A stretch of 64,000 bases of DNA from Tubulanus polymorphus. Its lineage: Eukaryota; Nemertea; Palaeonemertea; Tubulaniformes; Tubulanidae. Both the position numbers and the translations under genes were made by a program. How positions within the stretch are numbered: the first letter of the stretch is position 1; every line of letters begins with the position of its first letter. Shown here piece after piece: positions 759-63,560 of this stretch. The stretch is taken from contig NC_134028.1 in assembly GCF_964204645.1 (NCBI RefSeq), positions 15,921,263 through 15,985,262 of the forward strand, read 5' to 3'. The notes beneath the pieces are model-generated. The model was given only the letters and a program-made list of their open reading frames with translations. It was not told where the DNA came from and searched no databases.

Positions 759-1372
759 GCAAATGTTAAGAATTACATCATGTTATGTATTTCATAGTTT
801 CACAAAAATACAGTCAACATCGCTCAATTTGTATCTCTAGGGAAGAAGCCATTGTGTGTATCGAACAATGACTTTTACCGGCAAATGTGAACGCCTTTTG
901 TGTTTATTCAGAAAAGAAGCCACGCGCGAGTGTGTGAGATCAGCGCCACCCAGCAAATTCAATTCAATTAGTTATTGACTGTGTTTGTTTACACGAAAAA
1001 TCAGGGAAATGTGAGGTTTTCAAATCATTAAAAATGAGATTATACACAACCATCCATTTCAAGATTCGCCGCAATAGCCTTCACCGGATAAAATATGAAA
1101 AAGTTGACCGATATGTCTCAAAGTTCGCAGTTACGCGTTTTACTTATAAGTCCATATCCAACTATTACGGTTTACCACTTCCGCATTGTTTATCGAAACG
1201 TGTACTGCAAATGGCACAAAGCTACGGCACATTATTAAATAGTTTATAGTTTCTGCGAAAAACTTTACGTCGGATCCGAATCCGAAGTGCACGATCTGCG
1301 CTGTGCGATGTAAAACGTTTCCTAGAGCCCCATGACAATCATGGAAGTGATGAAGATGTCACTATATGTGAT

Positions 1373-16460: not shown

Positions 16461-16739
16461 ACTAACAACATTATTTAACATACGTTACCACACCTCGAGG
16501 GACCAAACTTGAATATCTGAAAAATGAAATTGATTTTATGAATCGAATACACCAGAGACCTATCCCTGTTAAATAAGGTTTAGGAATATGATGTTTAGGA
16601 GGGTTGAATAGCAATAGGCCTAAGCGCCTTCTGTCAGACCTACGCGCATGTTGTTTGTCGCTGCTGATAGACTGAATTCCATACACAGCCTTAGACTTAA
16701 ACCCCAACCTACAACCACCAGTACCAGGTAATTTCCGGC

Positions 16740-16950
16740 CAATGTTTGACGACATAGCCATTTTGCCATAGACAGGATCTGTTACCTTTTTTGCTTCCTT
16801 CTTAACGAATGAAATTAGGTGGCTTAACTTAATAACTGAACCAGTTTCTTTAACTTCATAAACAAGGTTGCACCACCTGGCTTGCAATATATAATATGTG
16901 GGTAGTTTCTGAACCAGCTTCTTCATGTTGTCCGGGTACTCCACCCACAT
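16740..16950 (-). pseudogene. Gag-like retroelement fragment
   Basis: A minus-strand open frame running 16,950-16,471 has an N-terminal part (KLVQKLPTYYILQARWCNLV, then FVKKEAKKVTDPVYGKM) that resembles gag proteins of BEL-like retroelements, with the pattern LP..LQ.RW followed by a FV..EA....DPVYG block. The rest of the frame shows nothing recognisable. It lies just upstream of the gag fragment above and could be its N-terminal part or a separate insertion. Confidence 0.45.
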
Positions 16951-17239
16951 CGGTGCAGAACGATTTTGGCAGTATACGGTGGTGTTTTACTATGCATTAG
17001 AAATGTACATTCATGAGAAAACCTTGCAGTAGGTGGGGGTGGGGGTATATGGGAGGGCGGTATATCGGGGGGTGACTGTAATTATATTTATAAAAACCAT
17101 CAGCAAAGCATCCATGATAGGTCTTAAAACTGCGTAATTTCAAATTCAAATTTATTCTTAGTAAATTGTGCTCAAATCTCATTTAACTCCTCGAAGTCAT
17201 ACTCAAGATGTCGTCTCAGGGCTTCCATTTTCCAGTAAG

Positions 17240-17960
17240 TAAGCTAACACAAAACATCAACTGTTATGTGTTATCTACTTCACAAGAAATAAAAGTGAAC
17301 CAAACGTATTAAAATGAAATGTGTAAACAAGAAGATAATTTCAGAGTTATTATATGACTTTATGTTTTGCGACAGGTTATTTCACTTCCATACTTTCGTT
17401 AAGTTACAGACCCCCTCCACCATACTCAGTGCATATGTATTAATTAAAATTTCCGTGGTGAAATGTTCCAATTTAAGTACCAGAATTTAACTAAACGAAT
17501 GATCGTTGAGTGGCGCCATCTGTATCATAGATTTCTGGACGAATTGCCCCCACTGTTCTCATATTTCATAGAAGAAAAATAGCAATAATCGAGCATATTT
17601 GTTCTTTAAAAAGTTAGGCTTTGTATGGTTGAGGCCAAAAGCTAGAGGCCAGGCCAAACAAATAGAAGGGCCAAACCGAAAGGGCCAGGCCATGTTTTGC
17701 ACTCACCCAACAAAATAATCTTTTTCACTTGAACGTACAATAATATGAACCTGGGATTTCTTCTTATATCCATATTATGCCTTGTTTCTGACCATGTACG
17801 GAACACAGCTTGTTTAGGTCGTTTTGGAAATTCACTGGTCCTGTACATTTTGGATTATTCTGTATATCATTTGATAGTGAAGAAAAGGTGACTTAGTATA
17901 CTACTTTGCGTTACTCTGGTTGGATCATATTTTCCAAGATGACGCAGTTCCGTTGATTTC
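17240..17960. other. Non-coding stretch
   Basis: No gene or repeat boundary is seen. A GGCC-rich patch at about 17,640-17,690 (GAGGCCAGGCC, GGGCCAGGCC) is the only local feature. Confidence 0.4.
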
Positions 17961-17969
17961 AGCCTTTTT

Positions 17970-18300
17970 TCTTTCATAGAAAAATACTGGGCCATTTAAG
18001 CGCCCCATGACTATTAATGCCATTTCCTAACAGCGTGTTTAGTAATCGCTGATGTAGTACCTTATCAAATGCTTTTTCGAAATCTATGAAGACTAATTAA
18101 GGCTTAACAATCGATTTGCCAGAGTGAAAAAACCATCTGTGCCCATCATCCATGGTATCAAGTAAGCCTAATTGACTGTTTGTAGCCCTTCCTTATATAA
18201 AACCGTGTTGACCGTTGAACAGGATTCTAAATTCCCTTCATTGTCATAACATACTGGGGCTGCGTAGACACATTATCCAGAAAAGATCAAGAATACGACC
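17970..18300 (-). pseudogene. Non-LTR retrotransposon (LINE) reverse transcriptase fragment
   Basis: Minus-strand reading gives NGQHGF followed by LLDTMDDG, then VFIDFEKAFDKVLHQRLL, which carries the first catalytic Asp of LINE reverse transcriptases (family pattern .xDF.KAFD.V.H..LL). Stops interrupt the frame twice. The fragment is about 100 residues and abuts the Gypsy integrase piece ending at 18,415. The CR1/L2 or Jockey group cannot be decided from this length. Confidence 0.7.
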
Positions 18301-18329
18301 AAGGCTATGCAGAAAACCCGTTATCACTG

Positions 18330-18415
18330 CTTTGCAGCTATACTTCAGATTGTTATATGAATGACTTTTTTTTATTCCCAATGGTACACCGTATACTTGA
18401 AACCAATTTTTAACC
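18330..18415 (-). pseudogene. Gypsy integrase core, downstream half
   Basis: Immediately beyond the BEL target duplication the minus strand reads WVKNWFQVYGVPLGI, the continuation of the Gypsy integrase core whose upstream half ends at 23,668. The family normally reads AKAWV..WF..YGVP at this point, so the two halves were one domain before the BEL insertion. The frame degenerates towards 18,330. Confidence 0.75.
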
Positions 18416-18596
18416 TGTCAAGACGCTGTAAAAAGGGGGCAAAATCCTTCCCTCGAAAAACTAACACGTTTTCTCTATAAAGGACTGTATTCTACTGACT
18501 ATATAAATCTCCCGTGGTCACCCGTGAGAATGTCCGACCAATGCAGTAACGCATGACTGCGCCCATATATAAATAAATAAACATAAATATCTGACA
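18416..18596 (-). repeat. BEL/Pao LTR (3' LTR in element orientation)
   Basis: 181 bp, with plus-strand ends TGTCAAGACGC and ATATCTGACA. It matches 23,503-23,667 almost throughout and has an extra run (CCCCCTTTTTACAG on the minus strand) near one end. It contains TATATAAA-like and AATAAA-like stretches suited to LTR transcription and processing signals. Confidence 0.9.
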
Positions 18597-18651
18597 TTCT
18601 CCGGGGCCACAAAGAGTTACAAATAAATTTCAGAAATTCGGAATAAATCGA

Positions 18652-19113
18652 TTAATCGCGATCGTCTTCTTCTGATTCTTCATCATGGGCGATTCTTCTG
18701 ATCTTGTCTCGTGCCTTCGTTGCGGCACCTCGTGGTAACCGAGATAGCAACACGTCCGCATCAGAATCGTCTACTTCAGCATCTCGTCCAGACTGTGGAC
18801 GGGACACGTCACCCTCTGTAGCTTCTCGGACCTCCAAAGGATAAAGTTTCGATATGGAGCGATTGGTTGAACCATTCTTAGTACGTAGTGACACGAAACG
18901 TACTAAACTGTCTCTACCATAATGCAGATCTGTAACGACACCCATCTGCCACTTTGACCTTGGCTCTTCATCCTCGATCAGCACAACATCTCCGCAACTT
19001 ATGAATAGTTCATTCTTGCCGGCTTTCTGTTGATAGTATTCACGCAAAGACGTCAAGTACTCTCGCGCCCATCTATTCCAAAAGTGCTGAATAATTACAG
19101 ACAGATGTTTCAA
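18652..19113 (-). pseudogene. BEL/Pao pol C-terminal domain (DUF5641-like)
   Basis: The 153-codon frame contains WNRWAREYLTSLREYYQQK and GDVVLIEDEEPRSKWQMGVV, the usual pattern of the small C-terminal domain after BEL integrases (W..EYL..L, then GD.VL..D...R..W..G.V). An acidic, arginine-rich tail follows. It lies next to the 3' LTR as expected. Its start codon is internal to the former polyprotein and not meaningful. Confidence 0.85.
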
Positions 19114-19141
19114 TCTCGATTCTGCGACACTAGGCTTCAGC

Positions 19142-19690
19142 TCAGTCTGGGTCCACTAATTCCCCCGGGGCCACATACGAATGCGCCAATGAGGTGACAC
19201 GCCTACCAACCATAAGCTGAGACGGAGTTAAAGGATTCTCATCCGACGGGTCTGATGACAAATAGGTTAACGGACGATCGTTCACGACGCTTTCTACTTC
19301 GGTTATGACGGTTCGAAACTCATCGATAGTTAAAAGCGCTCGACCAACGATTTTCTTCAAAACACTCTTCACGACTCCTACTAAGCGCTCCCAATAGCCT
19401 GCGACCCAGGGGGCACGTTTCGGTATGAAATTCCACGATACGCCGTGTTGACTAATAAACTCCTTAGCCTTAATGAACGTAGAAGCATTGTCCGACAATA
19501 TTTTCTTCGGTAGTGATCTTCTCGCAACAAATCTTCTAAACGCGCGAATAAACGATGCAGTTGTTAGGTCTTCTGTCACCTCGAGATGTACACCACGACT
19601 AACCGAACACGTAATAAGACAAATATATGCCTTTCCGATAGGAGACGGAGTTCTGACGTTAAACGGTCCAGCATAATCCAGTCCGGTATA
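19142..19690 (-). pseudogene. BEL/Pao integrase catalytic core
   Basis: The minus-strand frame includes DYAGPF with the first catalytic Asp, then KILSDNASTF with the second, and GYWERLVGVVK with the catalytic Glu, so the DDE triad looks complete. The segment PLTPSQLMVGRR follows, as is usual in BEL integrases. It is separated from the C-terminal domain by a frameshift near 19,130. Confidence 0.88.
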
Positions 19691-19699
19691 AAAGAACGC

Positions 19700-20560
19700 T
19701 GGAACTCAAGCAACTCTATTTACTGATAGCGGCAGAGGATCCGGAAAACGGAACGGACGGCTGTTGAATCTACGACAAATGACACATTGACAGAGGCGAC
19801 TTTTAACCAGTTGATGGATGCACGGCAGTACATCTGATGTATGCACGATACAGTAGAATTTACTCCCAGGTGGAATACCTTCTCATGCACATCTTTTATA
19901 ACGAGATTACTAAATGCATGTAACTTCGGCAGCAGACACGGATATTTCGTAGAAGAAGCAATATCAGCGTTATCGATTCTACCGCAAGAGCGTATGAGCC
20001 CTTCTACGTCCATATAAAGCTGCAATTGACGGATTATCGGAGTTTTGACTTTCACCTGACCACCTGACAATACGGTATGAACATCTGGAAACTCAGAACG
20101 TTGCAAGTCTCTGATCCACGACAATCGCGCTGCTTCTAACTCGGTTTGATCCAAAGGTTCAATAAATCGACGCACCCAGGCGGTCGCGCAACAACTTGCG
20201 GAGACTCGACATCCTAGTCGCATCCACTATTTCAGTCCACATCGGTACCCACTTCCATAGCAGAAATAAATGCTGAATATGGCGACCATGTCGGACGACT
20301 CCCAGAAACCAATCATTTTCATTTTGGTCCATGCCACCATAACGGATTACTATGTAGGTCATCGGTCGACTCACGCGATAATAAATCAGCTGGGTTTTCC
20401 TGCGTTGGACAGAAACCCCATTCAGCATCAGGAATCAAACTCCTGATCTCCTTAACCTTATTAGCTTCAAACGACTTCAATGGTTTCTCAGTAGAAATCC
20501 TGTACAGTACAGATTGGTTGTCTGACCACATGTACAATTTCAACGGTTGACCGATTTCCC
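19700..20560 (-). pseudogene. BEL/Pao RNase H end and integrase zinc-binding region, frameshifted
   Basis: Three short overlapping frames cover this part. 20,543-20,319 carries LYMWSDNQSVLYRI and the segment ENPADLLSR, the end of RNase H. 20,428-20,159 and 20,223-19,720 then carry the region leading to the integrase zinc-binding domain (CGRIDNADI, KDVHEKVFHLGVNS). At least three frame changes are needed to read through, so this region is inactive. Confidence 0.8.
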
Positions 20561-21744
20561 GAATAACGTGACCCTATAACTGCAGCGATAAGTTCCAGTT
20601 GCGGTACTGTCAAAGGTTTGACGGGCGCAACGCGCGGCTTCGACATCAGGAAACTCGACTGCCCTGACTTAACAGGATACCCTACAGCACCATACGACTT
20701 CTCGCTGGCGTCCGCGAAAACATGTAGCTCATAGCTAGATATTGAGTCTATTCCAGTGTCAAACAATTTCCTAGGATAGGATCGGTTCAGCATCGACGTA
20801 ATATTATGAACCGCGGTTATCCATCTACATCTAATTTCGTCTGGTACAGGTTCATCCCAAGAATATCCTGATTTCCAAAGATCTTGCATCAGTAACTTCG
20901 GTGTCACTAAGACCGGCGAGATAAATCCTAATGGATCATAAACTTTCGCTGAATCGCTGTGTATCATACGTTTAGTTACGACATCCTGATCTATAGATGT
21001 AAATTTGACCGAATTCTGCTCAATTTCATCTACGCTTGCATCCCATTTTATACCTAAGACTTTGACTTTTGACGATTTCTCATTGACGCAATCAATTTCC
21101 GCCAAATGCTGAACGTCACGACTATTACTCGTCCACGAACGCAAGTTAAATCCACCTTTGCCTAACAGTTCGCGAGAATTCCTGTAGAAATCAGTTAACT
21201 CTGCCTGACTGTTCATACTACTGATTACATTGTCCACATAAACGTTCCTCTTAATTACGTCACTCGTCACGCTCAGATTCATGTCCAGATGCTTCAGTAC
21301 GGTTGCGTTAAGTATAAACGGCGAACACGTAGCCCCAAATAAAACGACTCGAAACCTGTACGTCACCAACTCACTGTTCGGATCTCCTGCATCTTTCAAC
21401 CAGAGAAAGCGAGTAAAATTCTTATCTTCATCAGCCAATTCAATTTGAAGAAAAGCCTTCTCGATATCAGATACAGCAGCAAACTGTCCTAAACGAAAAC
21501 GCTACAAAATACCCAAGACATCGTTATGAAGAGACGGTCCTGCTTCCAAGCAGTCATTCAAGCTTACGGATGAGTACATCTTACATGAACAATCGAACAC
21601 AATCCGTAATGGCGTTGTCGCTGAATTACGGACGACTTCATGATGTGGTAAATAATGAGAAAGTTCATCACTAGGCATCGCTTCAGGCACCTGCTCAATA
21701 AACTCCCTGCGTTCCTGCTCCTTTATTATGCGGTCATACTTCAA
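20560..21744 (-). pseudogene. BEL/Pao reverse transcriptase and RNase H
   Basis: The frame from 21,744 has LPHHEVVR and RIVFDCSC, the N-terminal RT blocks. A TAG at about 21,500 interrupts it, after which the same frame continues with SDIEKAFLQIELADEDK (first catalytic Asp) and FGATCSPF. The palm motif is YVDN in place of the more usual YVDD. RNase H begins at ELHVFADASEKSYGAVGY. The single stop and the frameshift at about 20,550 are the main lesions. Confidence 0.9.
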
Positions 21745-22310
21745 GCAACGATTCTCTATACAATCTATTAATAGTCGACAAAGTACGTTGGCGCGAGATC
21801 TCGTAATTACTATTCAAAACCGGGTGATCAGCCTTCCATGGAAGTCGCGCGGTGTAACGACCGTGACAGAACGATATTGACTCAGCGCAGTACTGCTCGG
21901 CAGTTAAAGTCTCACAATGAGTATTGTCCGGATGTTCAATGCCGATTGCCTCCAAGTCCCATAGCCTTTGTATGCCTTGCTGGTCGTCAGCATGGTCAGA
22001 CAATAGATTCAAAACTTTGAATGAAGATTCGTTACACGGTTCTTTGACCGGACCGGACAGCAAGTATCCCAGTTTCGATTTAAGAGCAATAGGGCCATCT
22101 CCACTGGAATGTCGTATCACCTCGTCCAAGACAATGCTGTAGTAATGTCGGCTCCGATTAACAACGATATGTTAAAAACATCCGTACCAGTCAAAGGATT
22201 AGCAAATGTCAGTCCACTTAAATACTGATAGTTTTTCACCGAGTGACTCTTGTCTTTAACTGGTGCTGCGATATTAGGTACGACTAATAATTCTAGTTCA
22301 ATTTTTTCCC
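21734..22310 (-). pseudogene. BEL/Pao protease C-terminal remnant and linker
   Basis: Frames 22,575-22,117 (its last part) and 22,129-21,734 give LLIGADITTALSW and KLGYLLSGPV, which follow the retropepsin in BEL polyproteins. The active-site D-T/S-G segment itself is absent: the gag zinc knuckles run almost directly into this part. A frameshift lies near 22,125. Deletion of the catalytic half of the protease explains the missing sequence. Confidence 0.75.
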
Positions 22311-23479
22311 CGGTATGACAAATTGAATAGATTGAATAGACTCGTGTGGTGTTTTCCCTTACAAGAAAGACAACTTTTATTCGATGCGCATTTTCTAATC
22401 TGGTGATTCCCGGATAGACAATTAAAACAAAGGCGCAATTCTTTGGCACGATTACGACGCGCTTCGTTGGTAACGTATACCGTACAATTACTTGCTTTGT
22501 GACTCGACATACAATAATGACACTGCAACGGTTGACGGCCATTTTTACTACCAGTAGGCTTTGTCCCTGAACCAACCACGGTCATGGTAGATATACCCTC
22601 AGTAATTGTTGGCTGACCGGCTTCCAATATCAAAATCTCGTTGTCAATGGCGGACAAAATATCACTCAGCAAATATTCTCGGCTACCGTATTCACGAGCA
22701 ATGTTACGCCTCAATTCCGACGGCATTTTATCCAGAATAATTGGGACTAACAATCCACTGAAATACTCGTCAGATTTCCCATAGGATTTCAAAGTCCTTA
22801 TATACGATTCTAGTTTGTCCGAAAATCGACGTAAACTTACGAACGAATAAACCGGTTTTTCAAGGTCAACAAGCGCTCTCATGTACGCATTCGTTAACAG
22901 GTGCTTTTGGCCATAACGTTTTTCCAAAATACCACAGGCTTCAATATACGCACTGTCCGTCAGTGGTAAACCAGAAATGCAATCTGCAGCCTCACCAACT
23001 AATTGGCTCCTAAGATAATTAAATTTTTGAACGCTTGCCATGTTAGCAGAATGTATCGCGGCTCGAAAACTATCCCAAAATGACGACCATTCAATAATGT
23101 TGCCCGAAAATTGAGGTAGAGTCAATTTAGGAAGATTCACCTTCTGTCTTTCCTTGCTAGTCGACGATTGCGGTTCTTCGACAGTAGGAAAATCCGCAAA
23201 TCTAGCTCGGATTTCGGCGATTCGTATCCGCATGCTTCTCACGTCCTCCTCAGCAGTGACGAAGAATGAATTAAAAGCATCGTCCGTTGCCGACGCCTCC
23301 AGAATTTGCTCGTTGATTTCGACGATCTTAGCAATTCTGTCATTCAGCATTTTAAAATTCTCCGTAATTTTAACGACATCCGAATAGTTCTTCAAATTCA
23401 CTTTTTCTTCTAATTCCTGTGCGTGTTTCGTAAATAACCCACGGTGGGTGTTTCTACTGCGTTCCAATGCAGTCGTCAT
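22298..23479 (-). CDS. gag: BEL/Pao Gag (DUF1759 and zinc knuckles)
   Basis: This open frame starts best at the ATG at 23,479 (MTTALERSRNTH), 24 bases inside the 5' LTR; the frame is also open into the LTR. A helical N-terminal third is followed by the DUF1759 block (LPKLTLPQFSGNIIEWSSFW, then FNYLRSQLVGEA) and by zinc knuckles (CHYCMSSHKASNC, CFNCLSGNHQIRKC, CLSCKGKHH). Gag would form cytoplasmic virus-like particles and bind element RNA. The frame ends soon after the last knuckle because of the protease deletion. It is the best-preserved gene of the element. Confidence 0.85.
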   Translation of the reverse strand: MTTALERSRNTHRGLFTKHAQELEEKVNLKNYSDVVKITENFKMLNDRIAKIVEINEQILEASATDDAFNSFFVTAEEDVRSMRIRIAEIRARFADFPTVEEPQSSTSKERQKVNLPKLTLPQFSGNIIEWSSFWDSFRAAIHSANMASVQKFNYLRSQLVGEAADCISGLPLTDSAYIEACGILEKRYGQKHLLTNAYMRALVDLEKPVYSFVSLRRFSDKLESYIRTLKSYGKSDEYFSGLLVPIILDKMPSELRRNIAREYGSREYLLSDILSAIDNEILILEAGQPTITEGISTMTVVGSGTKPTGSKNGRQPLQCHYCMSSHKASNCTVYVTNEARRNRAKELRLCFNCLSGNHQIRKCASNKSCLSCKGKHHTSLFNLFNLSYRGKN

Positions 23480-23502
23480 AGTCGCTTTTGCCGAGGGACC
23501 AA

Positions 23503-23667
23503 TGTCAAGACGCAAAATCCTTCCCTCGAAAAACTAACACGTTTTCTCTATAAAGGACTGTATTCTACTGACTATATAAATCTCCCGTGGTCACCCGTGT
23601 GAATGTCCGACCAATGCAGTAACGCATGACTGCCCAAATATAAATAAATAAACATAGATATCAGACA
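23503..23667 (-). repeat. BEL/Pao LTR (5' LTR in element orientation)
   Basis: 165 bp, with plus-strand ends TGTCAAGACGC and TATCAGACA. On the minus strand the LTR is followed at once by TTGGTCCCTCGGC, a plausible tRNA primer-binding site (complement of a tRNA 3' end finishing GGGACCA). Confidence 0.9.
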
Positions 23668-42721: not shown

Positions 42722-44971
42722 AATTCAATTATTTGTCTATGAAACTAATTTCACAAAAATCATAGAATTTACTTGTACAAAATCATTTTGTCCATAGACC
42801 TTGTGCAACTTTATGAAATTGCTTAATATATATGAGGGCATTACAATTTGGATTGTTTTTGAATATCGGAATTAATTTCATTTTATTGCAATTCTTTTAT
42901 ATAGATATACTCTACTAATGTATCTCTAACAATACAATTTGTATGGGTATGAGTTACCCTTAATCAAAACTTAGTTTTTATCCAAGGACCTGTGCAACTT
43001 TGGGAAGGGAATACAGTTTTCCAGAATAATATTCAAACTCGAACAGTTCAAACAATTCTCTTCATATTGAGTGGCCAGATTTTGATATTAGGTGTTGCAT
43101 CTATTCATAGAAAAAGATATGTCTTATTTCGATGTCTTAAAAGATGTATAAGAAAAATTTTTACATAACCGTATGAATCTTATGCGTTTTCTGGCTTCTA
43201 TTTGATCTGTTCGAAACTTACCTACAGGTACGTAAAAAATTTTAATTCAATTTGATATAATTTGAAGTAGAAGTATTCCCAGATAGGTGGTCAAACATTT
43301 TTTCTGAGTATAGTCAGATGCAATGCTTATATCAAGTTCGTGGAAATAGTTACTCATCATATAAAAAATAAAGATTTACCCCATGATTTCAATCAAAATC
43401 AACCAATAGAATTCTAGAACTTTTGACATTGTTTTACTCTTTCTAACGAAAATCATTCATCAGGGTAATAAGTTGTTTTGAATTTAGTTATTTGTCTTTA
43501 AAACTAACTTCACTAAAATCATAGAATTTTCTTGTATGAAATCAATTTGTCCATAGACCTTGTGCAACTTTATGAAATTGCTTAATTTCTGAGGATTGTT
43601 ATGAAAATATCGGAATTAATTTCATTTTATTGCAATTCTTTTGTATCAATATCCCCTACTAAGGTATCTCTAACAATACAATTTGTATGGGTATGAGTTA
43701 CCCTTAATCAAAACTTAGTTTTTATCCAAGGACCTGTGCAACTTTGGGAAGGGAATACAGTTTTCCTGAATAATATTCAAACTCGAACAGTTCAAATTAT
43801 TCTCTTCATATTGAGTGGCCAGATATTTATATTAGGTGTTGCATCTATTCATAGAAAAAGATATGTCTTACTTCGATGTCTTAAAAGATGTATAAGAAAA
43901 ATTTCTACATAACCGTATGAATCTTATGCGTTTTCTGGCTTCTATTTGATCTGTTCGAAACTTACCTACAGGTACGTAAAAAATTTTAATTCAATTTGAT
44001 ATAATTTGAAGTAGAAGTATTCCCAGATAGGTGGTCAAACATTTGTTCTGAGTATATTCAGTTGCAATGCTTATATCAAGTTCGTGGAAATAGTTACTCA
44101 TCATATAAAAAATAAAGATTTACCCCATGATTTCAATCAAAATCAACCAATAGGATTCTAGAACTTTTGACATTGTTTTACTCTTTCTAACGAAAATCAT
44201 TCATCAGGGTAATAAGTTGTTTTGAATTTAGTTATTTGTCTTTAAAACTAACTTCACTTAAATCGTAGAATTTTCTTGTATGAAATCATTTTGTCCATAG
44301 ACCTTGTGCAACTTTATGAAATTGCTTAATTTCTGGGGATTGTTATGAAAATATCGGAATTAATTTCATTTTATTGCAATTCTTTTGTATCAATATCCCC
44401 TACTAAGGTATCTCTAACAATACAATTTGTATGGGTATGAGTTACCCTTAATCAAAACTTAGTTTTTATCCAAGGACCTGTGCAACTTTGGGAAGGGAAT
44501 ACAGTTTTCCTGAATAATATTCAAACTCGAACAGTTCAAATTATTCTCTTCATATTGAGTGGCCAGATTTTGATATTAGGTGTTGCATCTATTCATAGAA
44601 AAAGATATGTCTTATTTCGATGTCTTAAAAGATGTATAAGAAAAATTTCTACATAACCGTATGAATCTTATGCGTTTTCTGGCTTCTATTTGATCTGTTC
44701 GAAACTTACCTACAGGTACGTAAAAAATTTAAATTCAATTTGATATAATTTAAAGTAGAAGTATTCCCAGATAGGTGGTCAAACTTTTGTTCTGAGTATA
44801 GTCAGTTGCAATGCTTATATCAAGTTCGTGGAAACAGTCACTCGTCATAACGATAAGATTTACCCCACGATTTCAATCAAAATCAACCAATAGGATTCTA
44901 GAACTTTTGACATTGTTTTACTCTTTCTAACGAAAATCATTCATCAGGGTAATAAGTTGTTTTGAATTTAG
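42722..44971 (+). repeat. Young 744-bp tandem array, three units
   Basis: The anchor GTATGGGTATGAGTTACCCT occurs at 42,941, 43,685 and 44,429, exactly 744 bases apart. Sequence between anchors is nearly identical. The array stops abruptly at about 44,971 where the virus-like A+T-rich segment begins. Confidence 0.92.
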
Positions 44972-45058
44972 TATATATTTCATATTAGATTTTATTTTAT
45001 ATATATTATATTCATCCCGAGTAAAAGCGACTTCATATGTATTAAATATATTTTCCAT
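44972..45058 (-). pseudogene. Virus-like gene J, truncated start
   Basis: Starts at an ATG at 45,058 that directly follows the stop of gene I (TAAATG) and reads MENIFNTYEVAFTRDE before it is cut by the satellite junction at about 44,971. Only about 29 codons remain, so nothing can be said about function. Confidence 0.5.
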
Positions 45059-45214
45059 TTAAGAAATAAAATAATTTGTTCCAGCTAAATAAATTTCTAT
45101 ATTAACTAATGAGTTCAAAACTAAATTTTTAGATGTAATATTTTTATTAAAATCTACTGTAGGAATATTATATTTAATTGATTTATTATATTGGAAAGCT
45201 ATTGGAAACCCCAT
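45059..45214 (-). pseudogene. Virus-like gene I, 51-residue open frame
   Basis: An intact 51-codon frame starts at the ATG at 45,214 (MGFPIAFQYN, context TAAATGG) and ends at TAA 45,061-45,059, with the next ATG following immediately. It is rich in Asn, Ile and Leu, with no transmembrane stretch strong enough to call. It may be an entire small gene or the first part of a longer one. Function unknown; placement in the virus-like element rests on composition, strand and spacing. Confidence 0.5.
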
Positions 45215-45230
45215 TTATATAATAAAAAAA

Positions 45231-45330
45231 TTAATAATTAATTAATTCTTTAAATAATTTATCTTGTTCTTCCTAATTTTTTTTTAAATTTATCTATTTC
45301 TTTTATATTAGATTTAATTTTTTCTTTATT
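45231..45330 (-). pseudogene. Virus-like gene H, C-terminal fragment
   Basis: Minus-strand reading gives a lysine-rich helical stretch (KSNIKEIDKFKKK). A frameshift in an A run splits the end between two frames, one of which stops at 45,231. It directly abuts the hairpin terminus of the inserted element. The likely N-terminal part of the same gene lies beyond the insertion at 47,023-47,200. Confidence 0.5.
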
Positions 45331-47022
45331 AGCATTGGTTGACGTCTATGACGTCATGCCAATGCTAGTAAAATGGATCGAAAATAGTAGTACGAAAAAA
45401 TAGCGTCGACTCTTCTCATTTTCATAGTAACTTCAAATTGTCACTCCGTTCACGTAAAACATTAGAAACAGCTGAAAATGACTAAAAAAAATGTTTCAAT
45501 TATTCCCCACAACATAGCGTCGCCAGGTTTCTGATTTAATGGCCCAAAAAGTTATTCGATCGCATTTTTCTCGTTAATTATCTGGTAGATGAGAGCAGAT
45601 TAAACAATCGCGTAGCGATATGTCCGCATTGACATTGGCAGTAAAGAATGGGGAAAACCCTCTTCTGAATAGAAAAACATAAATAATGTACCTCCGGTTT
45701 ATAAATATCACAGTGTTTGGATATAACTGTTATTCCAACTATCAGTATCTATGGGATTATTTGGGATTAATTCTCAGCGTCAGAATATGTATTTCTAGAG
45801 CAGTGGAACGGCAGCCTACTCGTGACCGAAACCCGTATGTGATCGTGCGGGAACGCCTTTACTAAAGTTAAAACCATTTCATGATGACACGAAATGGTTA
45901 ACGGTAGGCTACCACCATGATACGATATCACCAATAAAGATAGATCATTTTATTCAATTTTACCAGAGTTGTTTATTGGAGGAAAATATTATTGTTAAGC
46001 ACGCCGAGAACAACCATGTTGTATTATCAATCAGTTGACTGACATTGTAAAATTCGATTCGGCTATATTCTAATATAAGTTTTCTTTTTAGGACGCCCTA
46101 CCCGCCTGCTGCGCACTCATAAGGCGGTAGCACCCTCTTACGCACTCGGCAGAGATTCGCTTTGTAATGCTCGCCGTGAAAAAATACCTTTTAATTTTTT
46201 TCCATGCGTTAAACAACAGTGATTGAATTTACGCGTTGTTTGTCGTAAATTGCAATATTGCGATGTTTATTTGCCGCTGCTGTAGTTTTTTGGAATTGAA
46301 TCGAGCGGCCTCGGTAGCTCAGTGAGATAAGGCGTGATGCTATTGAATCCACTATCAATGCTGAGTTACAAGTGGGTTCGAGTCCTGCTGGCTGCGAACA
46401 GTGTGCGGGCAACACTTCAAAGGCTGTACCGTCGTGAGGTTAAATGAACAATCCAATAGGAATAGTCTTGGGAAACCAAGATCCAAACGACGTACATAAA
46501 GCCAAACAAACAGAAAGACAAACAAACAATCATCAGCCGGCCTCAGTGACACCAACGCCGGCATCGCTCTCTGCAACGTTTTGCATGCGTACATGCATCA
46601 GAGCTTGGAGCTCTTAAGATCAGAGGGTCTTGCAATTGCATTCAGAAATCGTTCTGTTTTTGTTTTCATTATTCAGTGGGGCCTAACAGTTCATGCGTAA
46701 AAATGGGTTTTTGTATCCAAATCTTGATTGATATAAATATCTTGGCTGGGACATGATGGAAAACATCCGAATAAACTAGTTTCGTCTTTTTAACAGAATC
46801 GCATTAATGAGGTTTAACAGTACAAATAGCCTAGGCTAAATCATTCGGCAGAAAATAAATTCATTTTCAGGAATAAAATCGTACTAGACAAATAGACCTT
46901 TAAGTCTGTGGTCCTCCCAATCAACATCGTCATAGAAGATTTGCCGGCAGATGTAAAACATTATAACCACATAATACCGCAGTATATTCTACCAATGCTT
47001 CAAGGCCCATGGGCCTCTTGTT
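45331..47022. mobile_element. HINE/pearl-like element inserted in virus-like gene H
   Basis: The left end is a hairpin (AGCATTGGTTGACGTC, loop TAT, then GACGTCATGCCAATGCT). The right end is the palindrome GGCCCATGGGCC followed by TCTTGTT. Virus-like, A+T-rich minus-strand coding sequence stops at one side and resumes at the other, so the segment is an insertion. It contains a tRNA-derived SINE at 46,306. The two hairpin ends match the pattern at 59,520 and 62,730. Confidence 0.6.
46306..46630 (+). repeat. tRNA-derived SINE
   Basis: Box A TAGCTCAGTGAGATAAGG and box B GGGTTCGAGTCCTG are spaced as in a tRNA gene (about 46,314 and 46,374). The acceptor and anticodon arms do not pair well, and an unrelated tail of roughly 240 bp follows, so this is a SINE and not a functional tRNA gene. 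The source tRNA cannot be named with confidence. Confidence 0.65.
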
Positions 47023-47202
47023 ACTTTTTATATTTAATTTTGAACTTATTCCGCTTAAAACACTTGATGGTAATCCTAGCACACCAATTGATATAGCTAA
47101 AGGTGTTAATGGTGAAAATATTGTAAAAAATGTAATCACCGAACTAATTGTAACTGAACCACTAATAATAAAATAATATATAATTTTGCTTTTTAAATAT
47201 TT
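47023..47202 (-). pseudogene. Virus-like gene H, hydrophobic N-terminal fragment
   Basis: Read on the minus strand this is a continuous hydrophobic stretch with membrane-like segments (SVTISSVITFFTIFSPLTPL, then ISIGVLGLPSSVLSGISSKL) rich in Gly, Ser, Ile and Leu, followed by basic residues. It would be a membrane protein or membrane-active virion component. No start codon is visible because the candidate insertion at 47,203 begins here. The reading breaks at 47,022 where the hairpin-ended element enters. Confidence 0.55.
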
Positions 47203-48313
47203 TTTGACGCCTTATAAAACGTTACCATTATGAAACCTAAACAATGTTAACCATTCAGCGTCATTTTACAAACGACAACCGTAAATCGATGTGCAAAACG
47301 TCACAGGTTTATGTGTACACATACAAGCTATTTGGCAAAATAATATTGATAAAGATGTAGAATGGCTCCCTTTGATTATATAATGACGTCTATTTGAACG
47401 TCGAAATGTTATATTGCATTGAATATCATGAGAAGACGTATTGTAATAGTAAAGGATGTATGATTATATCAGGAGCGGCAGGCATAAATAGAAATGATAA
47501 GTAAATCGGATTATTCGGTTAAATGGCGGATGTATACACAATTTGGAAGTCTGATATAAAAGTCAGACCCTGACATGGGGATGCTAGTGGAATGACGAAG
47601 CTATCTACAATCTGAGTAGGGCCGGCGTGAATTTCATCGGCGGCTACAAGCGGTCTATATAAAAACGTGTTAACATATAATTTCAATATTCAAATGTTTT
47701 AGAAAATATGTTCGATATAAGGGGTATGCAAGTTTCATGAGATTAGCAATTTATAATAGTATAGCTGTCATATACGGCTCCGTGTCCATTGATGGCATGT
47801 GTATAAGGTGACAATTCAATTCAATACTTTATTGATCCTTATTACATTGAAATTCTGGGATAAAATTTAAAAAACTTACAAATCTTAAAATAAGAAAATA
47901 CAAAATACAAGACACACGGTTAATTCATACAGAATAACATGAATAAGTTCTTTAAATGACAATGTCTACTTCAACCCAGACTCAAGTCTAGGATATCGAG
48001 TGACAGCCAAACCGGGCCCCAGGACCGGGCCGGCTGGCTACACGATATGCTCAACGCCATGATGAAGCAAACATCCAAAGAACTCTTTCTTCAACCATGG
48101 AGGCAATGAAGTTGCAGACCAGCTTAGAGGCAAAAATGAATCGAAGTCGGTCACAAGTTGACAATTTTTTTAAAATTAGACCAGTTGAAGACTGTATCAT
48201 CTACCCAATCGCCAAATCTCATAATTCCCCAAATTTCTTAAAACTTCGATTTCAAATTTGCAATTCCACATTAGCTTCTCCCAGAAATTCTACATTTTTT
48301 CGCAGGCGTCAAA
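47203..48313. mobile_element. Candidate insertion with 10-bp terminal inverted repeats
   Basis: TTTGACGCCT at 47,203 is inverted at 48,304-48,313 (AGGCGTCAAA). The interior is less A+T-rich and unrelated to the virus-like genes. It includes a retroelement-tail-like TTCAATTCAATACTTTATTG at about 47,816 and an unassigned open frame at 48,097-48,324. No clear target duplication, so the boundary is tentative. Confidence 0.4.
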
Positions 48314-48326
48314 TAATTTATTAAAG

Positions 48327-48537
48327 TTAATTTTCTTGTTTCTTTTGAACTTTTAAATCATTTTCAAATTCTAATATTTGTTTTCCTAGATTTGATTATG
48401 GACGAAGACCATATAGGGATCGTCGCTGGTAAAAATTCTGCCATTCAGCGAACAACACCCGTAGTATCTCTACTGCTATGGATATAGTCCCATAATGCTG
48501 TATCGATATAGAACTGATAATCCAATTTGTGATCCAT
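48327..48537 (-). pseudogene. Virus-like gene G
   Basis: Starts at the ATG at 48,537 in TAAATGG context (MDHKLDYQFYIDTALWDYIH). A stop follows after 30 codons, after which the same frame continues for about 26 more; the end (QILEFENDLKVQKKQEN, stop at 48,327) is in another frame. The total would be about 70 residues. Composition is mixed, with a charged C-terminus. The conserved look of the first 50 residues (Trp, Tyr and His positions) suggests a real protein. Function unknown. Confidence 0.5.
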
Positions 48538-48562
48538 TTATTTAACAAAAAATAATATATGA

Positions 48563-48975
48563 TTAATTTGTAAATTTATATGCTACAAATATAACAATAA
48601 CAGTTCCACCTAAAATCCAAATTATTTCATATTTCTTCTGTTCATTACTTGGTGTATAATAATCCGATATTGTAGGTTTATATAGATGTAATTTTTCTTT
48701 ATTTGTTACTGCATTATATAAACTCATTGCCTCATCGACTGACTTAAAATCTCTATGTGAAATATTTTAATTATATAATTCTTTATTAATATAATCCATA
48801 TGATTTTGTCTTTTTCCTCTATATTCTTCTGCAGCTTTATTATATTTCTCTTATGTCTTTTTTGTTCTGATAATGAACCATTTTTATCAATATGTTAAAA
48901 TAAATAACCACCACCTGTAAATGCTAAAGCGTTAACAATTGCCGGTCCTATAATAGTTATAATTGCAGATGCCAT
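48563..48975 (-). pseudogene. Virus-like gene F, protein with membrane segments at both ends
   Basis: The ATG at 48,975 (TAAATGG context) begins a hydrophobic N-terminus (MASAIITIIGPAIVNALAFT) that ends in a premature TAA at 48,897. Beyond it the frame continues, changes register near 48,850 and, after another stop, ends with a second hydrophobic segment (IIWILGGTVIVIFVAYKF) and TAA at 48,565-48,563. The middle is charged and Tyr-rich (KLHLYKPTISDYYTPSNEQK). The architecture is a short protein of about 135 codons with a membrane span at each end, as expected for a small virion membrane protein. Two stops and one frameshift show decay. Confidence 0.6.
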
Positions 48976-49118
48976 TTATTTAGTAAAAAATTACGCATTA
49001 ATAGGAGGAATATATTTTTTTTTTCTAAATAATCAATTGTTAAATTAGATAAAGTTACTGCTAACGTTAATTTTAAAATATCATTGATATTAAATCTATC
49101 AACATTAATGCTTCCCAT
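48957..49118 (-). pseudogene. Virus-like gene E, short hydrophobic protein
   Basis: The ATG at 49,118 follows the stop of gene D without a gap. The first 32 codons (MGSINVDRFNINDILKLTLA ...) look protein-like; a run of ten A residues at 49,015-49,024 follows and the frame then reads through the start of gene F to a stop at 48,957. In another register there is a stop at 48,993-48,991, just before gene F, which would suit the compact arrangement of the other genes. A single-base change in the A run is the probable reason. Confidence 0.5.
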
Positions 49119-49217
49119 TTAAAAAATTTTCTTCAATAACATTGTATAACCAACAGTTCCAACTGATAGTAATGCTATATTATATAATCCATTTATTATC
49201 CACTTATTATCACTCAT
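49119..49217 (-). pseudogene. Virus-like gene D, 32-residue membrane peptide
   Basis: An intact 32-codon frame (MSDNKWIINGLYNIALLSVG ...) runs from the ATG at 49,217 to TAA at 49,119, abutting both neighbours (stop of gene C just before, start of gene E just after). Residues about 8-28 form one hydrophobic span and the end is basic (LLKKIF). A tiny membrane protein is likely. Intactness may be chance, given its length. Confidence 0.55.
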
Positions 49218-49558
49218 TTATTTATCAAAATAGTTACTGTTTTCAAAATATTTAGTTATCTTATTTATAATTATTTCAACATTTATTTCATTACTACTTT
49301 TATGATTATCATATATTTTAGATAATATGTTTTTAATATCATTGATAATTCCATCTTCATTACATCATAATATTCTAAAGATGTTTAAATTAAATCAATT
49401 ACTTTTTCTTTATCATAATTTTCTTTATTAATCATTGATGCTTTGTTAAATGATTTACCTTTTATATCAGTAATTATATCATTTAGTTCAATTCTCATTT
49501 CTTTACCATGTTTCAAATCAAACCCAAAACATATACTCGATCCTACTGTTATATTCAT
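49218..49558 (-). pseudogene. Virus-like gene C
   Basis: Starts at the ATG at 49,558 (MNITVGSSICFGFDLKHGKE) and is open for 57 codons to a TAA at 49,387-49,385. A frameshift near 49,350 then leads into a charged, Asn/Ile/Lys-rich helical end that stops at 49,218, immediately before gene D. Original length was about 113 codons. It is the only early-frame gene here not preceded by TAA. No motif recognised. Confidence 0.5.
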
Positions 49559-49584
49559 ATGTATTATTATAAAAAAATTATCAA

Positions 49585-50150
49585 TTATTCTTTACATGTT
49601 ACAACTAATTCATTTATCACAGGAAAGTTATTCAAATCAATTAAGTATTCATTATGATTTTTAATTTCTAACTTAAAATTATTAAATTGTGAATTGCAAG
49701 GCTTAAAATCACATTCTGTTAAATTATAATTTATTTGCGTTCCAAATTCTTTAAAATTCTTCAATGGTAAAATATTTAATATACTAGAATTACAAGTTGT
49801 ATCTTTAGTTGCTTCGAATGTTTTTGTAGGTTCAATTAAATTACAATAGATATAGAAATGTGTGTAAGGTATTAAGTTTGGTGTAGCATCAATATTTGTA
49901 AAAGATCTATCTAGCGGAATTCCTTTAGTTTAGCTATAGGTTTTTTTACCATAAATTTATGTTTTTCACTACGAGATAACCTTATGTTTATTTTATCAGA
50001 ACTATCACTTTTTAAAAATCTAATATTAAACCCGGAATCACTACCTAATTTGTGCCAGGCTTTTCTATTAATTTTTGTGATAATGTATTTAAATTATATA
50101 ACCCTGGTTTTAAATATATATAGAACCATTCATCTTTATTTTTATTAAAA
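49585..50150 (-). pseudogene. Virus-like gene B, larger structural-type protein fragment
   Basis: Three successive frames cover about 190 residues. The first contains EWFYIYLKPGLYNLNTLSQ; the next SDSGFNIRFLKSDSSDKINI, ending in a stop; the last an open stretch of about 110 codons with SFTNIDATPNLIPYTHFYIY and CNLIEP, ending VVTCKE and TAA at 49,587-49,585. Alternating short beta-prone segments with Asn, Thr and Tyr and a C-terminal strand pattern would suit a jelly-roll capsid or spike protein, but that is inference from composition only. The N-terminus appears to have been lost by deletion next to gene A. Confidence 0.5.
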
Positions 50151-50208
50151 ATTAAAAAGGCTCTGTTGAATAATTTTATTCGATATATTGTAAAATGAGT
50201 TACATAAA

Positions 50209-50460
50209 CTAATATTTACTATGATATCTATCTGGTAAATATCTTCTGAATTTATATTTATTACCTTTTAATCCTTCATATTCTAAGTGAATAACTAATT
50301 TATCACCATATCTATTAGTAATTGTTTCAATATTTGTAATTAGATATTTCTTATGTTATGTTAATTCTGTTAACTTTTTGAATTTATAATCTACAGATTT
50401 GACATTTTTAGTATCTTTAATTCTAGCTAGGAATTCACTGTTTATTTGTTTACTCTCCAT
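50209..50460 (-). pseudogene. Virus-like gene A, first gene at the terminus
   Basis: Starts at the ATG at 50,460 in TAAATGG context (MESKQINSEFLARIKDTKNV). One TAA interrupts it at 50,358-50,356 and the frame continues to TAG at 50,209 (84 codons), including LITNIETITNRYGDKLV and LPDRYHSKY. A homologous decayed copy lies at 63,029-63,325 and extends further (EDIEELCSGDFYCIYKG), so this copy is truncated at its 3' end. I do not recognise the family with certainty; a compact beta-rich domain such as an OB-fold DNA-binding protein is conceivable. Two independent copies support that it was a real gene. Confidence 0.6.
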
Positions 50461-50546
50461 TTATTATACATATTTTTTATTAAAATTGATTTCATTAATA
50501 TAATATTCATTTATATAATGTTCATATATATGAATATTATTAAAGA

Positions 50547-50691
50547 AATAGGGTAAGTGTTTTTTCAGATTAAAGGTTGAAAGGTTGAATGAGTGAGAAA
50601 TGAAAATAAATTTGAGCGTGTGAGAATTTATTTTTTATTTTTTATGAGCTCGACCTTTCAACCTTTGATCTGAAAAAACACTTACCCTATT
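50547..50691. repeat. Terminal inverted repeat/hairpin of virus-like element
   Basis: Arms of 42 bp (50,547-50,588, AATAGGGTAAGTGTTTTTTC onward, and 50,650-50,691) pair with two or three mismatches around a 61-bp A+T-rich centre that can itself fold (AAATAAATT against AATTTATTT). It lies 86 bases upstream of gene A and ends exactly at the break in the Gypsy integrase. Part of the arm (CCTTTCAACCTTTG) has a match upstream of the second copy, at 63,531. Confidence 0.7.
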
Positions 50692-51297
50692 ACTTTTGCG
50701 GATACCGAGGACTCGACCTTGTCAGCTTGAATCCCCAGTCTTTCACAAACTCACGAAACCTTGGCGATGAAAAAGGCACAATATCAGCAACAAATCTTCA
50801 GGAGTACTGTGATGAGCGAAAACACCCTTAGCGTGACGGATGACTTCAGAGGCATCCTTCCTCTGCAGTGGCGCTATCTCAGGATATCTAGAATAATAGT
50901 CACAAATAAGAAGATATCCTTGTTCTTAAACGTGAACAAATCCACCCCAAGTCATTGCCATGGTCTATCCGGGATCTGATATTGTTGTAAAGGCTCCTTA
51001 ACTTGGCGATCCGCAAACTCGAGACAGGAGGGGCACTTGGCCACGAAATCATTGATATCATGATTGAAATTGGGCCAATAGACTGTCTCGTTCAAGCCTT
51101 ACATTTTTCAGCACCCATGTGACCTTTGTGTGTATAACATCTACAATCGTGCGACACATACTTTTAGGGATAACGATTCTTTGTCTGCGCAACACAAGAT
51201 TATCATGAAAATGAAGCTCATCGCGCACATTCCAATACGCGCTGATACTCAGATTGACGTATGACACCCGATCGGGGCCAACCACGTTTAATGGCAT
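50692..51297 (-). pseudogene. Gypsy integrase, truncated
   Basis: 51,297-51,058 carries the region before and in the zinc-binding domain (FHDNLVLRRQRIVIPKSMCR). Then CPSCLEFA gives the CxxC half. The core begins about PDRPWQ, a stop, LGVDLFTFKNKDIFLFVTII, and reaches the segment SSPRYPQ, where Gypsy integrases normally continue SNG.AE. Here the sequence changes to the virus-like terminus at about 50,692. The catalytic Glu and the 3' LTR are therefore missing. Several frameshifts are present. Confidence 0.8.
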
Positions 51298-51508
51298 AGA
51301 TTAACTCAGATATTTCACCATCCTCCTTGACTGCGCATTTTACTTCCGACAGCCTATCGCTACTGAATGGGAGATTCTCCATTTATAGGCTTACCATTAC
51401 CTCAAAGTCCGTATTCTTCTTTCTGTCCGGTAATGGAGCCCGAGATAATGTATCTGGCACATCTTATCTCCCGGAATATACGAAAAATCGAGCATATATC
51501 TTTGTAGC

Positions 51509-51840
51509 TTAATCATCATGCATTGGAGACGCGGCTGCACAATCGGCTTTTAGCATTGATACCAATGGCTTATGATTGGTTTCGACAGATAAGATATCAT
51601 TCCCAATAATATTTTGGTGAAATTTGGAACACGCAAAACATATCGCTAACATTTCATGTTCATTTTGCGCATCATTCCGCTCAGCAGATGCGAGAGGTAC
51701 AGGGACGCGACTGCTACAGGGTGACCACATGACTGCACCACACGGGGTGACCATCTTGGAACAGCCCAGTTGGAGATGTATCCCCCTGAATCCTGACCGG
51801 CTTACCCCCATCATAGAACTTCAGAACAGGCTTGGGTGAC
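51509..51840 (-). pseudogene. Gypsy RNase H domain
   Basis: The frame contains AERNDAQNEHEMLAICFACS and ETNHKPLVSML, the usual Gypsy RNase H end blocks (S..ERNYAQ.E.E.LA, then ETDHKPL); the Asp of the latter is Asn here. A short piece further on (about 51,440) reads PDTLSRAPLPDRK, the linker to integrase. The upstream part is frameshifted. Confidence 0.8.
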
Positions 51841-51847
51841 AACGCAC

Positions 51848-52780
51848 TTAAAATCCTATCCACAGCCTGATCATGCTCATGTTCCCAGTTCCATGCATTA
51901 CCTGTTTTAACAGATCTCGCAATGGCTTCGCGAAATCCGACTCGTGTGGTATATATGACGACAAATATTGAACCATGCCCAATAGTCTTTGCAATGACTT
52001 AACGCAATCAGGTTTCGGCATTTTTGCAATCGCCTCAACCTTGCTCGAATCAGGACGCATGCCCTCAGCTGACATGATATTACCACAATATTTGACATGA
52101 GTCGTTTTGAACTGTAATTTAGCCTTGTTGAAATGCACACCATTTTCACGAGCACCTGCTACGATCATGTCATCACTAATCACCTCGACACCATCAATGT
52201 CACTGAAAATCTCCTCAATTCGTTTTTGCATGACATCACTGGCGGACTTATACCAAACGGCATTCTAAGAAAACGCAATCGTCCCCAGCTTGTATTAAAT
52301 GCATTTAGATATTAAGACTGTTCAGTTAATTGGACGTGCCAATAAGCATTCTTCAAATCCAAGGTACTAAATACCTTTCGCAGTTCTGTATATCTTCGAC
52401 GGTCGGAATTACATGCTTCCGTCTGATCACTTTATGAAGCTGTCTAGAATCAAGGCACAGGCACATTGACCCATCCTTTTTCTCAGTTACTACTAGATTG
52501 CTGACCCTCGCGGAAGGCCTATCAGCTGTCGCAAGGATCTCCATATCGGTCAAGCTATTGAGCTTAGCTTTGAGCTTGTCCCCACGAGGCAGTGGAAAGT
52601 GTCTTGCTGGTTGGTTCAACCGTCGGATGGAGTTCGATATCGTACAACCTTTCTAATTTTCCTACTCCCTCGAACAGATCACCGTTTTCTCGCAGCAGAG
52701 CTTCCTTCGTTAGAGAGCCACTTGACACACCAATGTTATTCAAATGCTTGATGTCAAATAACTCCTCGCAAGCGTCTTGG
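51848..52780 (-). pseudogene. Gypsy reverse transcriptase
   Basis: Frames 52,851-52,564, 52,619-52,353 and 52,231-51,848 follow in order with frame changes between them. Recognised segments are LERLYDIELHP, RVSNLVVTEKKDGSMCLCLD, LRFLRMPFGI and EVISDDMIVAGA, the catalytic block (.DD), then KLQFKTTHVKYCGNIMSAEG and SLQRLLGMVQYLSSYIP, the connection region. At least three frameshifts and two stops make it inactive. Confidence 0.85.
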
Positions 52781-62764: not shown

Positions 62765-62992
62765 TTAATTTGAATGTGGTTCATAATATCTTTCTTCACT
62801 AAATGATTGATTACATGTATCACATTTATGTAATTCTTTTTCATTCTTTAATTCTTCTAATTTAGTTTCTAATATATCATCTTTATATTCTAATTTCAAT
62901 TAATTTTCTGAGGTATCATTATGTCTTGCTTTTTGAGATTTATCTATATTAATTTTACATGTTGGACAGTAGTACTTCTTAAATGCTTCCAT
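62765..62992 (-). pseudogene. Virus-like copy 2: small zinc-finger protein gene
   Basis: Starts at the ATG at 62,992 (MEAFKKYYCPTCKINIDKSQ) and stops at 62,765 after 75 codons, with one internal TAA at codon 31. Two zinc-finger-like units are visible: C-P-T-C followed by a His 12 residues later, and CDTCNQSFSEERYYEPH near the C-terminus. A lysine/glutamate-rich helix separates them. Another ATG (MRRKYINK) follows the stop directly as TAAATG before the junction at about 62,748. Small zinc-finger proteins are common in DNA viruses. This gene has no counterpart in the first copy, where the region seems deleted. Confidence 0.55.
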
Positions 62993-63028
62993 TTTAATAA
63001 CAAATTTATTATTAAAATGGATTTTATT

Positions 63029-63325
63029 TTATTCGAAATCATGATGCCCTTTTTCATTCTTACCTTTATATATGCAATAGAAATCACCAGAACATAATTC
63101 TTCAATATCTTCACTAGATAATCTATGAAATCTGTCTGGTAAAAACGTTCTGAATTTATATTTATTTCCTTTTAATCCTTCATATTCTAAATGGAATACT
63201 TATTTATCCCCATATCTATTAGTAATTGTTTCAATATTTGTAATTAACTATTTCTTAAAAATTCATAATTCTGTTAACTTTATAAATTTATAATCTACTG
63301 ATTTAGCATTTGTGGTATCTTTGAT
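63029..63325 (-). pseudogene. Virus-like copy 2: homologue of gene A
   Basis: Minus-strand frames match gene A at 50,209-50,460 (LITNIETITNRYGDK, LEYEGLKGNKYKFR, LPDRFH) and extend it by about 30 residues (EDIEELCSGDFYCIYKG) to a TAA at 63,029. Three in-frame stops and the loss of the start region show decay. The longer C-terminus reveals what is missing in the first copy. It lies just upstream of the zinc-finger gene. Confidence 0.6.
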
Positions 63326-63399
63326 TCTAGGAATGATTTTTTATTCTCACTGTGTACTTGTACTATCTGTGTACTGTGTACTATCCCTTTTAATAACAA

Positions 63400-63560
63400 A
63401 TTTTGTATTAAAATTGATTTTAGAAATTTCAAATTTCATAAATATGATATTCATATAGATGATATTCATAAATACGATATTCATATATATGGAATTCATA
63501 TATATGGAATTATTAGAGTTATTGTATATAACCTTCAACCTTTGTTATCAAACAACTTAT
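63400..63560 (-). repeat. Terminal flank of virus-like copy 2
   Basis: Tandem ATATTCATA and CATATATATG units precede gene A', as a related CATATATATG stretch precedes gene A at 50,530. A match to the terminal repeat (ACCTTCAACCTTTG) follows at 63,531. The sequence beyond 63,560 is unrelated to the element, so an end lies near here. The 63-codon open frame across the units is a product of the repeat. Confidence 0.45.

Follow-up and report, generated by a model that had tools for sequence, protein, structure and literature searches.

The window analysed here, a stretch of 64,000 nucleotides of Tubulanus polymorphus DNA from contig NC_134028.1, contains a low-GC block (positions 44972–50694) which is very probably a dead one-end fragment of a Maverick/Polinton. 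Such virus-like DNA elements integrate and encode a PolB, an integrase, a packaging ATPase and capsid proteins of their own. This type of element is already known, and the family to which the fragment belongs is new, as judged by comparison of features. The identification is based on the gene set, the terminal inverted repeats (TIRs), the size of 17,992 bp and the 6-bp duplication found in a related copy of the same genome.

The genome searched was the window's own (267.8 Mb in 77 contigs); the loci taken from it are numbered with the letter L and its contigs with the letter C. Polintons/Mavericks are marked by TIRs starting with AG, a 6-bp target duplication and a size of 15–20 kb. The copy on contig C1 spans 17,992 bp between its AG and CT ends, has TIRs of 463 bp with 3 mismatches, and is flanked on both sides by TGCAAC. 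This copy is itself damaged: several of its genes are broken, PolB and the ATPase being in pieces.

Related copies carry the hallmark genes beside the genes seen in the window. In Pfam searches, the integrase (L014:6299–7213) matched rve at 2.3e-9, above the cut-off, and chromo at 6.7e-5, just below it; the packaging ATPase (L014:7206–7532) matched Pox_A32 at 2e-6, also above the cut-off. NCBIfam gave transposase-type matches to the integrase below the cut-off. PolB frames are present in L009, L010 and L016, and 5341 relatives were recovered among 7990 scored; one of them, P0132, 49% identical to the query, matched DNA_pol_B_2 at 1.3e-9, above the cut-off. The capsid-like protein had 925 relatives among 3416 candidates, and Capsid_N was matched in 15 of 32 aligned relatives (best value 1.1e-4). 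Further genes of the related copies are missing from the window: one for a 490-aa protein containing a coiled-coil-like stretch, those for the capsid-like protein and for a 263-aa protein, and PolB. Also missing are the genes that these copies carry on the opposite strand, namely the ATPase and the integrase, an HNH-like gene, named by eye, and two unknown ones. The first-pass annotation of this stretch had proposed an endogenised Polinton-type element and had suggested looking for genomic copies with hallmark genes; such copies exist, and integrase, ATPase, capsid-like gene and PolB adjoin the genes in question.

In the window, eight gene remnants are recognisable, all on the minus strand by homology; they match longer frames elsewhere in the genome by tblastn, with a best E of 9.7e-58. 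From 50460 down to 44963 they follow the order p117, 252-aa gene, p110, p73, p142, p53, p94 and p462, an arrangement that L009 and L010 share in both order and strand; the queries were frames taken from L009, L010 and L014. The fragment begins with the outer, palindromic part of the TIR (50542–50694, minus strand), which starts with AGTAATAGGG at 50694 and has an 84% identical counterpart in L012 (7068–7286). The p117 remnant (50221–50460) covers residues 1–84 of 117 with 75% identity (E 7e-36), and a gap against L010 indicates a deletion that removed the end of p117 along with the beginning of the gene after it. The 252-aa gene (49588–50222) has a broken frame, matched the p184 and p129 pieces with a best E of 9.9e-58, and is intact in L063. 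The p110 remnant (49230–49558; E 2.9e-42) is broken, and p73 (48999–49217; E 3.9e-17 for the p40 piece, start set by eye) has decayed into two short frames, to which a 73-aa frame of L063 corresponds. The broken p142 remnant (48566–48975; E 2.6e-52 and 1.8e-21) is hydrophobic at both ends, and a short p53 remnant (48339–48389; E 7.5e-8) adjoins the second of two nested repeats (repeat 2). The start of p94 lies at 47023–47172 (E 2.6e-24, in a tblastn match that extends spuriously into the first repeat, repeat 1; 87% nucleotide match to L009) and its end, beyond that repeat, at 45234–45325 (E 2.6e-6, also matching L009). The p462 remnant (44963–45211), residues 4–87 of 462 at 58% identity (E 4e-20), is cut by a satellite array. 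Every recognisable Maverick gene in the block is broken or cut.

These comparisons revise several earlier readings of the block. The count of at least ten genes falls to eight, and two of the junctions at which a stop codon abuts a start reflect decay rather than gene borders, since comparison with L009 and L063 places 45059/45058 inside p462 and about 49119/49118 inside p73. The low G+C content stands, with 21% at 49001–50000, as do the membrane segments of two products, seen as hydrophobic segments in p94 and p142 by eye rather than by prediction. The inverted-repeat terminus is also real (50542–50696) and represents the start of the element's TIR. One-strandedness holds for the remnants by homology; among open reading frames (ORFs) of at least 40 aa the block has 15 on the minus strand, five of them inside repeat 1 and two inside repeat 2, and 8 on the plus strand, and therefore the pattern is visible only through homology. 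The virus-like character applies to a run of viral-type gene remnants on one strand; the block as a whole is a mosaic with two separate repeats inside. As for its limits, the lower falls where a 744-bp tandem array borders the block, and the upper, 50694, is the first TIR base.

The position of the polymerase gene differs among copies. The C1-type order is TIR, PolB, p117 and 252-aa gene; in the window, p117 comes directly after the TIR. A query from L043 that runs from the TIR through p117 into the first part of the 252-aa gene, which is a penton candidate by analogy, matched 22 of 40 scored loci across part of the TIR, p117 and the penton start (2608 candidates), and 10 of these 22 reach the outermost 20 bases. 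With a TIR–p117 query, a second leader copy came after p117 in 17 of 40 scored matches (2039 candidates), within 15 bp in 16 of them and after 89 bp in one, on C9. The leader leads into PolB in both places that could be read further, L007 and a second Maverick scrap in the window (62774–63451, minus strand: leader, p117 and PolB start); no palindrome was seen at either. Facing pairs with one end of each kind, no more than 60 kb apart, number four (22.3 kb, on contig C6, and 32.7, 38.7 and 50.1 kb) versus 0.10 expected, and none of 5000 shuffles reached four, under a rough null in which places were moved by 0.2–4 Mb with random strands. No ends of the same kind face each other within this distance. 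For the window's subfamily, the coordinates support a p117 that adjoins each TIR and a PolB at the opposite end. The polymerase is probably absent from the window because the end that bears it in this subfamily has been lost.

Several observations weigh against the Maverick/Polinton identification as a whole or its details. None of the polymerase, integrase, ATPase and capsid genes is present in the window fragment itself. The full-length capsid query had no Pfam match at E 0.01, and the first part of another capsid copy matched Capsid_N only at 0.0016, below the cut-off. Pfam recognised no adenovirus-type protease in the scanned frames, several short frames lying outside the scan, and a viral contig collection scanned with the capsid, PolB and the capsid alignment yielded no relative. 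The target duplication was examined in a single element (C1; 1/1), a sample of one; the swapped gene order is drawn from the best 40 scored matches per query, with no element read end to end; and the fold model meant to show whether the 252-aa penton candidate is a single jelly-roll failed for want of homologues, with a mean pLDDT of 32.9 from an alignment of 3 sequences, and so speaks neither for nor against. The capsid found no match in a PDB sequence search, and PHROGs gave weak matches only, all to families of unknown function.

The lack of hallmark genes in the fragment, together with a helical p462 core that resembles nothing in PDB or viral models, could point to the remains of a different lineage of small DNA viruses, one devoid of polymerase or capsid genes. 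We consider this highly improbable, since in the C1 and C7 copies the same genes have integrase, ATPase, capsid-like gene and PolB as neighbours; on this ground we rejected a lineage that lacks hallmark genes. The undescribed lineage proposed earlier from their absence is not upheld, given that the fragment is cut at 44972 and that its end type seemingly lacks a polymerase in its subfamily. It is also conceivable that the window copy descends from a shortened element, by then without PolB, which was mobilised by full copies: the C1-type PolB sits between the TIR and p117 and is gone here, and in L012 no other gene separates the TIR from the 252-aa gene, which shows that deletions close to the TIR do occur. 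However, the 22 of 40 loci with TIR, p117 and penton start, the 17 of 40 in which p117 is followed by the leader that precedes PolB, and the four places where the two kinds of ends face each other make such a shortened element unlikely.

Large palindromes at the TIRs, the small gene p117, which in one subfamily seems to adjoin both ends, and an intein-like insert in one polymerase appear to be new features of this family. At the window terminus, 153 bases fold as single-stranded DNA at −42.9 kcal/mol (z = −15, a fold that none of 200 shuffles equalled), and the C1 terminus is a palindrome of 269 bases (z = −22). All 40 scored matches of the C1 TIR query (1968 candidates) show an opposite-strand self-match of 80–87%; these matches are 92–100% identical and hence close kin. 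With the L043 query, of the window's type, the self-match appeared in 18 of 40 scored matches, and many of the others had no outer arm or had lost it. Over the first 48 bases, the two arms of one terminus are identical at 0.83 in C1, 0.88 in the window, 0.90 in L016, 0.77 in L012 and 0.81 in L043, compared with 0.62–0.83 for cross-arm comparisons between elements. The own-arm value is the highest in the window and L043, is tied in L016, and is exceeded in C1 and L012 by the likeness of the outer arm to that of a relative; the outer arms of C1 and L016 are 0.90 alike. As own arms match best in only two of five termini, and are surpassed in C1 and L012, it is only suggested that the arms were kept matching over time.

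Two explanations of these termini may be weighed. The family may form a Maverick lineage whose long hairpin-palindrome ends are kept paired by its replication cycle with a protein-primed polymerase, with p117 beside both ends and PolB on the integrase side. We hold this complete scheme to be rather doubtful, because of the two-of-five result for own arms and because the palindrome is visible in only 18 of 40 L043-type matches. The same two figures, and outer arms of C1 and L016 that are closer (0.90) than the own arms of C1 (0.83), favour palindromes without any role, inherited by the family from one inverted duplication beside the ends. This has a real chance of being correct, though we would not call it probable: all 40 scored C1-type termini keep the palindrome, close relatives as they are; the window and C1 termini fold far better than shuffled sequences; and the arm sequences differ among subfamilies yet still pair. 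No report of palindromic or hairpin ends of Mavericks/Polintons was among the papers listed in a literature search.

The element is abundant in this genome. For the start of the capsid gene, all 150 scored matches, the best of 1391 first-look candidates, are 92–100% identical, and 144 of 150 are free of stops in the matched part; for a 184-aa piece of the penton candidate, all 150 scored, the best of 1661 candidates, are 76–100% identical. Six capsid genes were taken from among the best matches, and in each of their 15 pairs the third codon position is the most divergent, as it is in 3/3 pairs for p142, 1/1 for the 252-aa gene and 8/10 for p117. When the window pieces are compared with related frames, the same holds in six of eight, p110 and p462 being the exceptions. 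Partial proteins resembling those of the Maverick occur in two records named Bartonella: P0127 is 61% identical to PolB and P0285 is 55% identical to the capsid. They are likely host-DNA contamination of a bacterial assembly.

About half of the block consists of two nested, younger repeats. The genome search splits the block: 45326–47022 and 47200–48341 match many loci independently, and the remainder matches few, such as C1:12836097–12839569 and C7:9527168–9530616. Repeat 1 (45326–47022), of about 1.7 kb, appears non-coding from its short frames, and repeat 2 (47200–48341), of about 1.14 kb, is non-Maverick, as its copies are more widely spread. Using the last 300 bases of repeat 1, all 40 scored copies were 96–100% identical (346 candidates), and using the first 300 bases of repeat 2, all 40 were 98–100% identical (620 candidates). 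L009 has no repeat 1 at this site, and L011, L061, L062 and L063 have no repeat 2; both repeats were inserted after the Maverick and are younger. Of 30 loci selected for their identity to repeat 1 and read over 3.3 kb each, 8, the window among them, gave Maverick protein matches, and the TIR motif identifies L026 as a ninth repeat-1 locus near a Maverick. A preference of repeat 1 for Mavericks is not claimed, as Mavericks are abundant and the comparison had no control set. By eye from the coordinates, repeat 1 and Mavericks are both mostly mid-contig. Repeat 2 occupies the same position, between p94 and p53, in the window (47200–48341), L009 (3632–4772) and L010 (4752–5902), that is, in the window, C1 and C7 copies; among these it is 95% alike, and the flanks about 87%. 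This likeness may come from one old insertion with later exchange, or from repeated insertion at one T-rich site.

Outside the element, the 744-bp tandem array that ends the fragment occupies 42722–44972, with weaker relatives at 36.9–39.8 kb of the window. The scrap at 62774–63451 has a zinc-finger-like PolB start and the same strand as the block. Minus-strand frames at 16471–23515 and 50952–52619 resemble what we take to be retrotransposon remnants. A search for a TTAGG pattern gave two arrays, both lying away from contig starts.

Among the other proteins, p462 had 142 relatives among 7996 scored; its model (mean pLDDT 73.4) is helical in its confident parts, and matched nothing at E 0.001 in PDB or the viral models, nor usefully in a phage collection. 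The 252-aa protein had no useful sequence match in Pfam or PDB, the PDB search giving only two urease-accessory chains (E 0.075 and 0.079). A related PolB frame in L016 carries LAGLIDADG_3 (4.8e-7, above the cut-off) within an intein-like insert at the DTDS motif of PolB (959–2460, minus strand); the frame is broken, its intein motifs were read by eye, and NCBIfam gave it one weak match. A similar end of an intein-like insert occurs at about 300–1000 in L004. Homing-endonuclease inserts in polinton polymerases have already been reported (PMC11071308).

In its size of 18 kb, its TIRs, its 6-bp duplication and its genes for integrase, packaging ATPase, PolB and a capsid-like protein, the element agrees with Polintons/Mavericks (Polintoviricetes), whose gene set is described in PMC4028283 and PMC11071308. 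The present family differs in its palindromic TIRs, in one subfamily that seems to have p117 next to each end and PolB at the far one, and in a protease not recognised in the scanned frames; a protease is identifiable in 74% of Polintons (PMC4028283). Its large and varied population resembles those of Mavericks in wasp and ant genomes (PMC6035795). The integrase, PolB and capsid genes are shared with adintoviruses. These are animal elements that carry integrase, PolB and capsid genes. Parvoviruses have hairpin ends. Bidnaviruses carry a Polinton-derived pPolB (PMC11071308). With both groups the likeness is one of termini only; the element here is of 18 kb and has an integrase and a packaging ATPase.

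By analogy with the family, the integrase would insert the linear element DNA, PolB would copy it from the TIRs by protein-primed synthesis, the ATPase and capsid proteins may package it into particles, and the palindromic termini might serve replication or end protection. A pPolB with terminal-protein and OTU-like domains has been described (PMC11071308). In the window copy, the two repeats inserted later, the genes decayed and a satellite truncated the fragment.

Subfamilies of this element seem to differ in the end that bears the polymerase, so a fossil of a known element can lack the hallmark genes. The palindromic termini are relevant to the replication of Polintons and to the protection of Polinton ends. 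Well over a hundred copies of the capsid gene have open frames, which makes this genome a rich natural record of a Maverick invasion.

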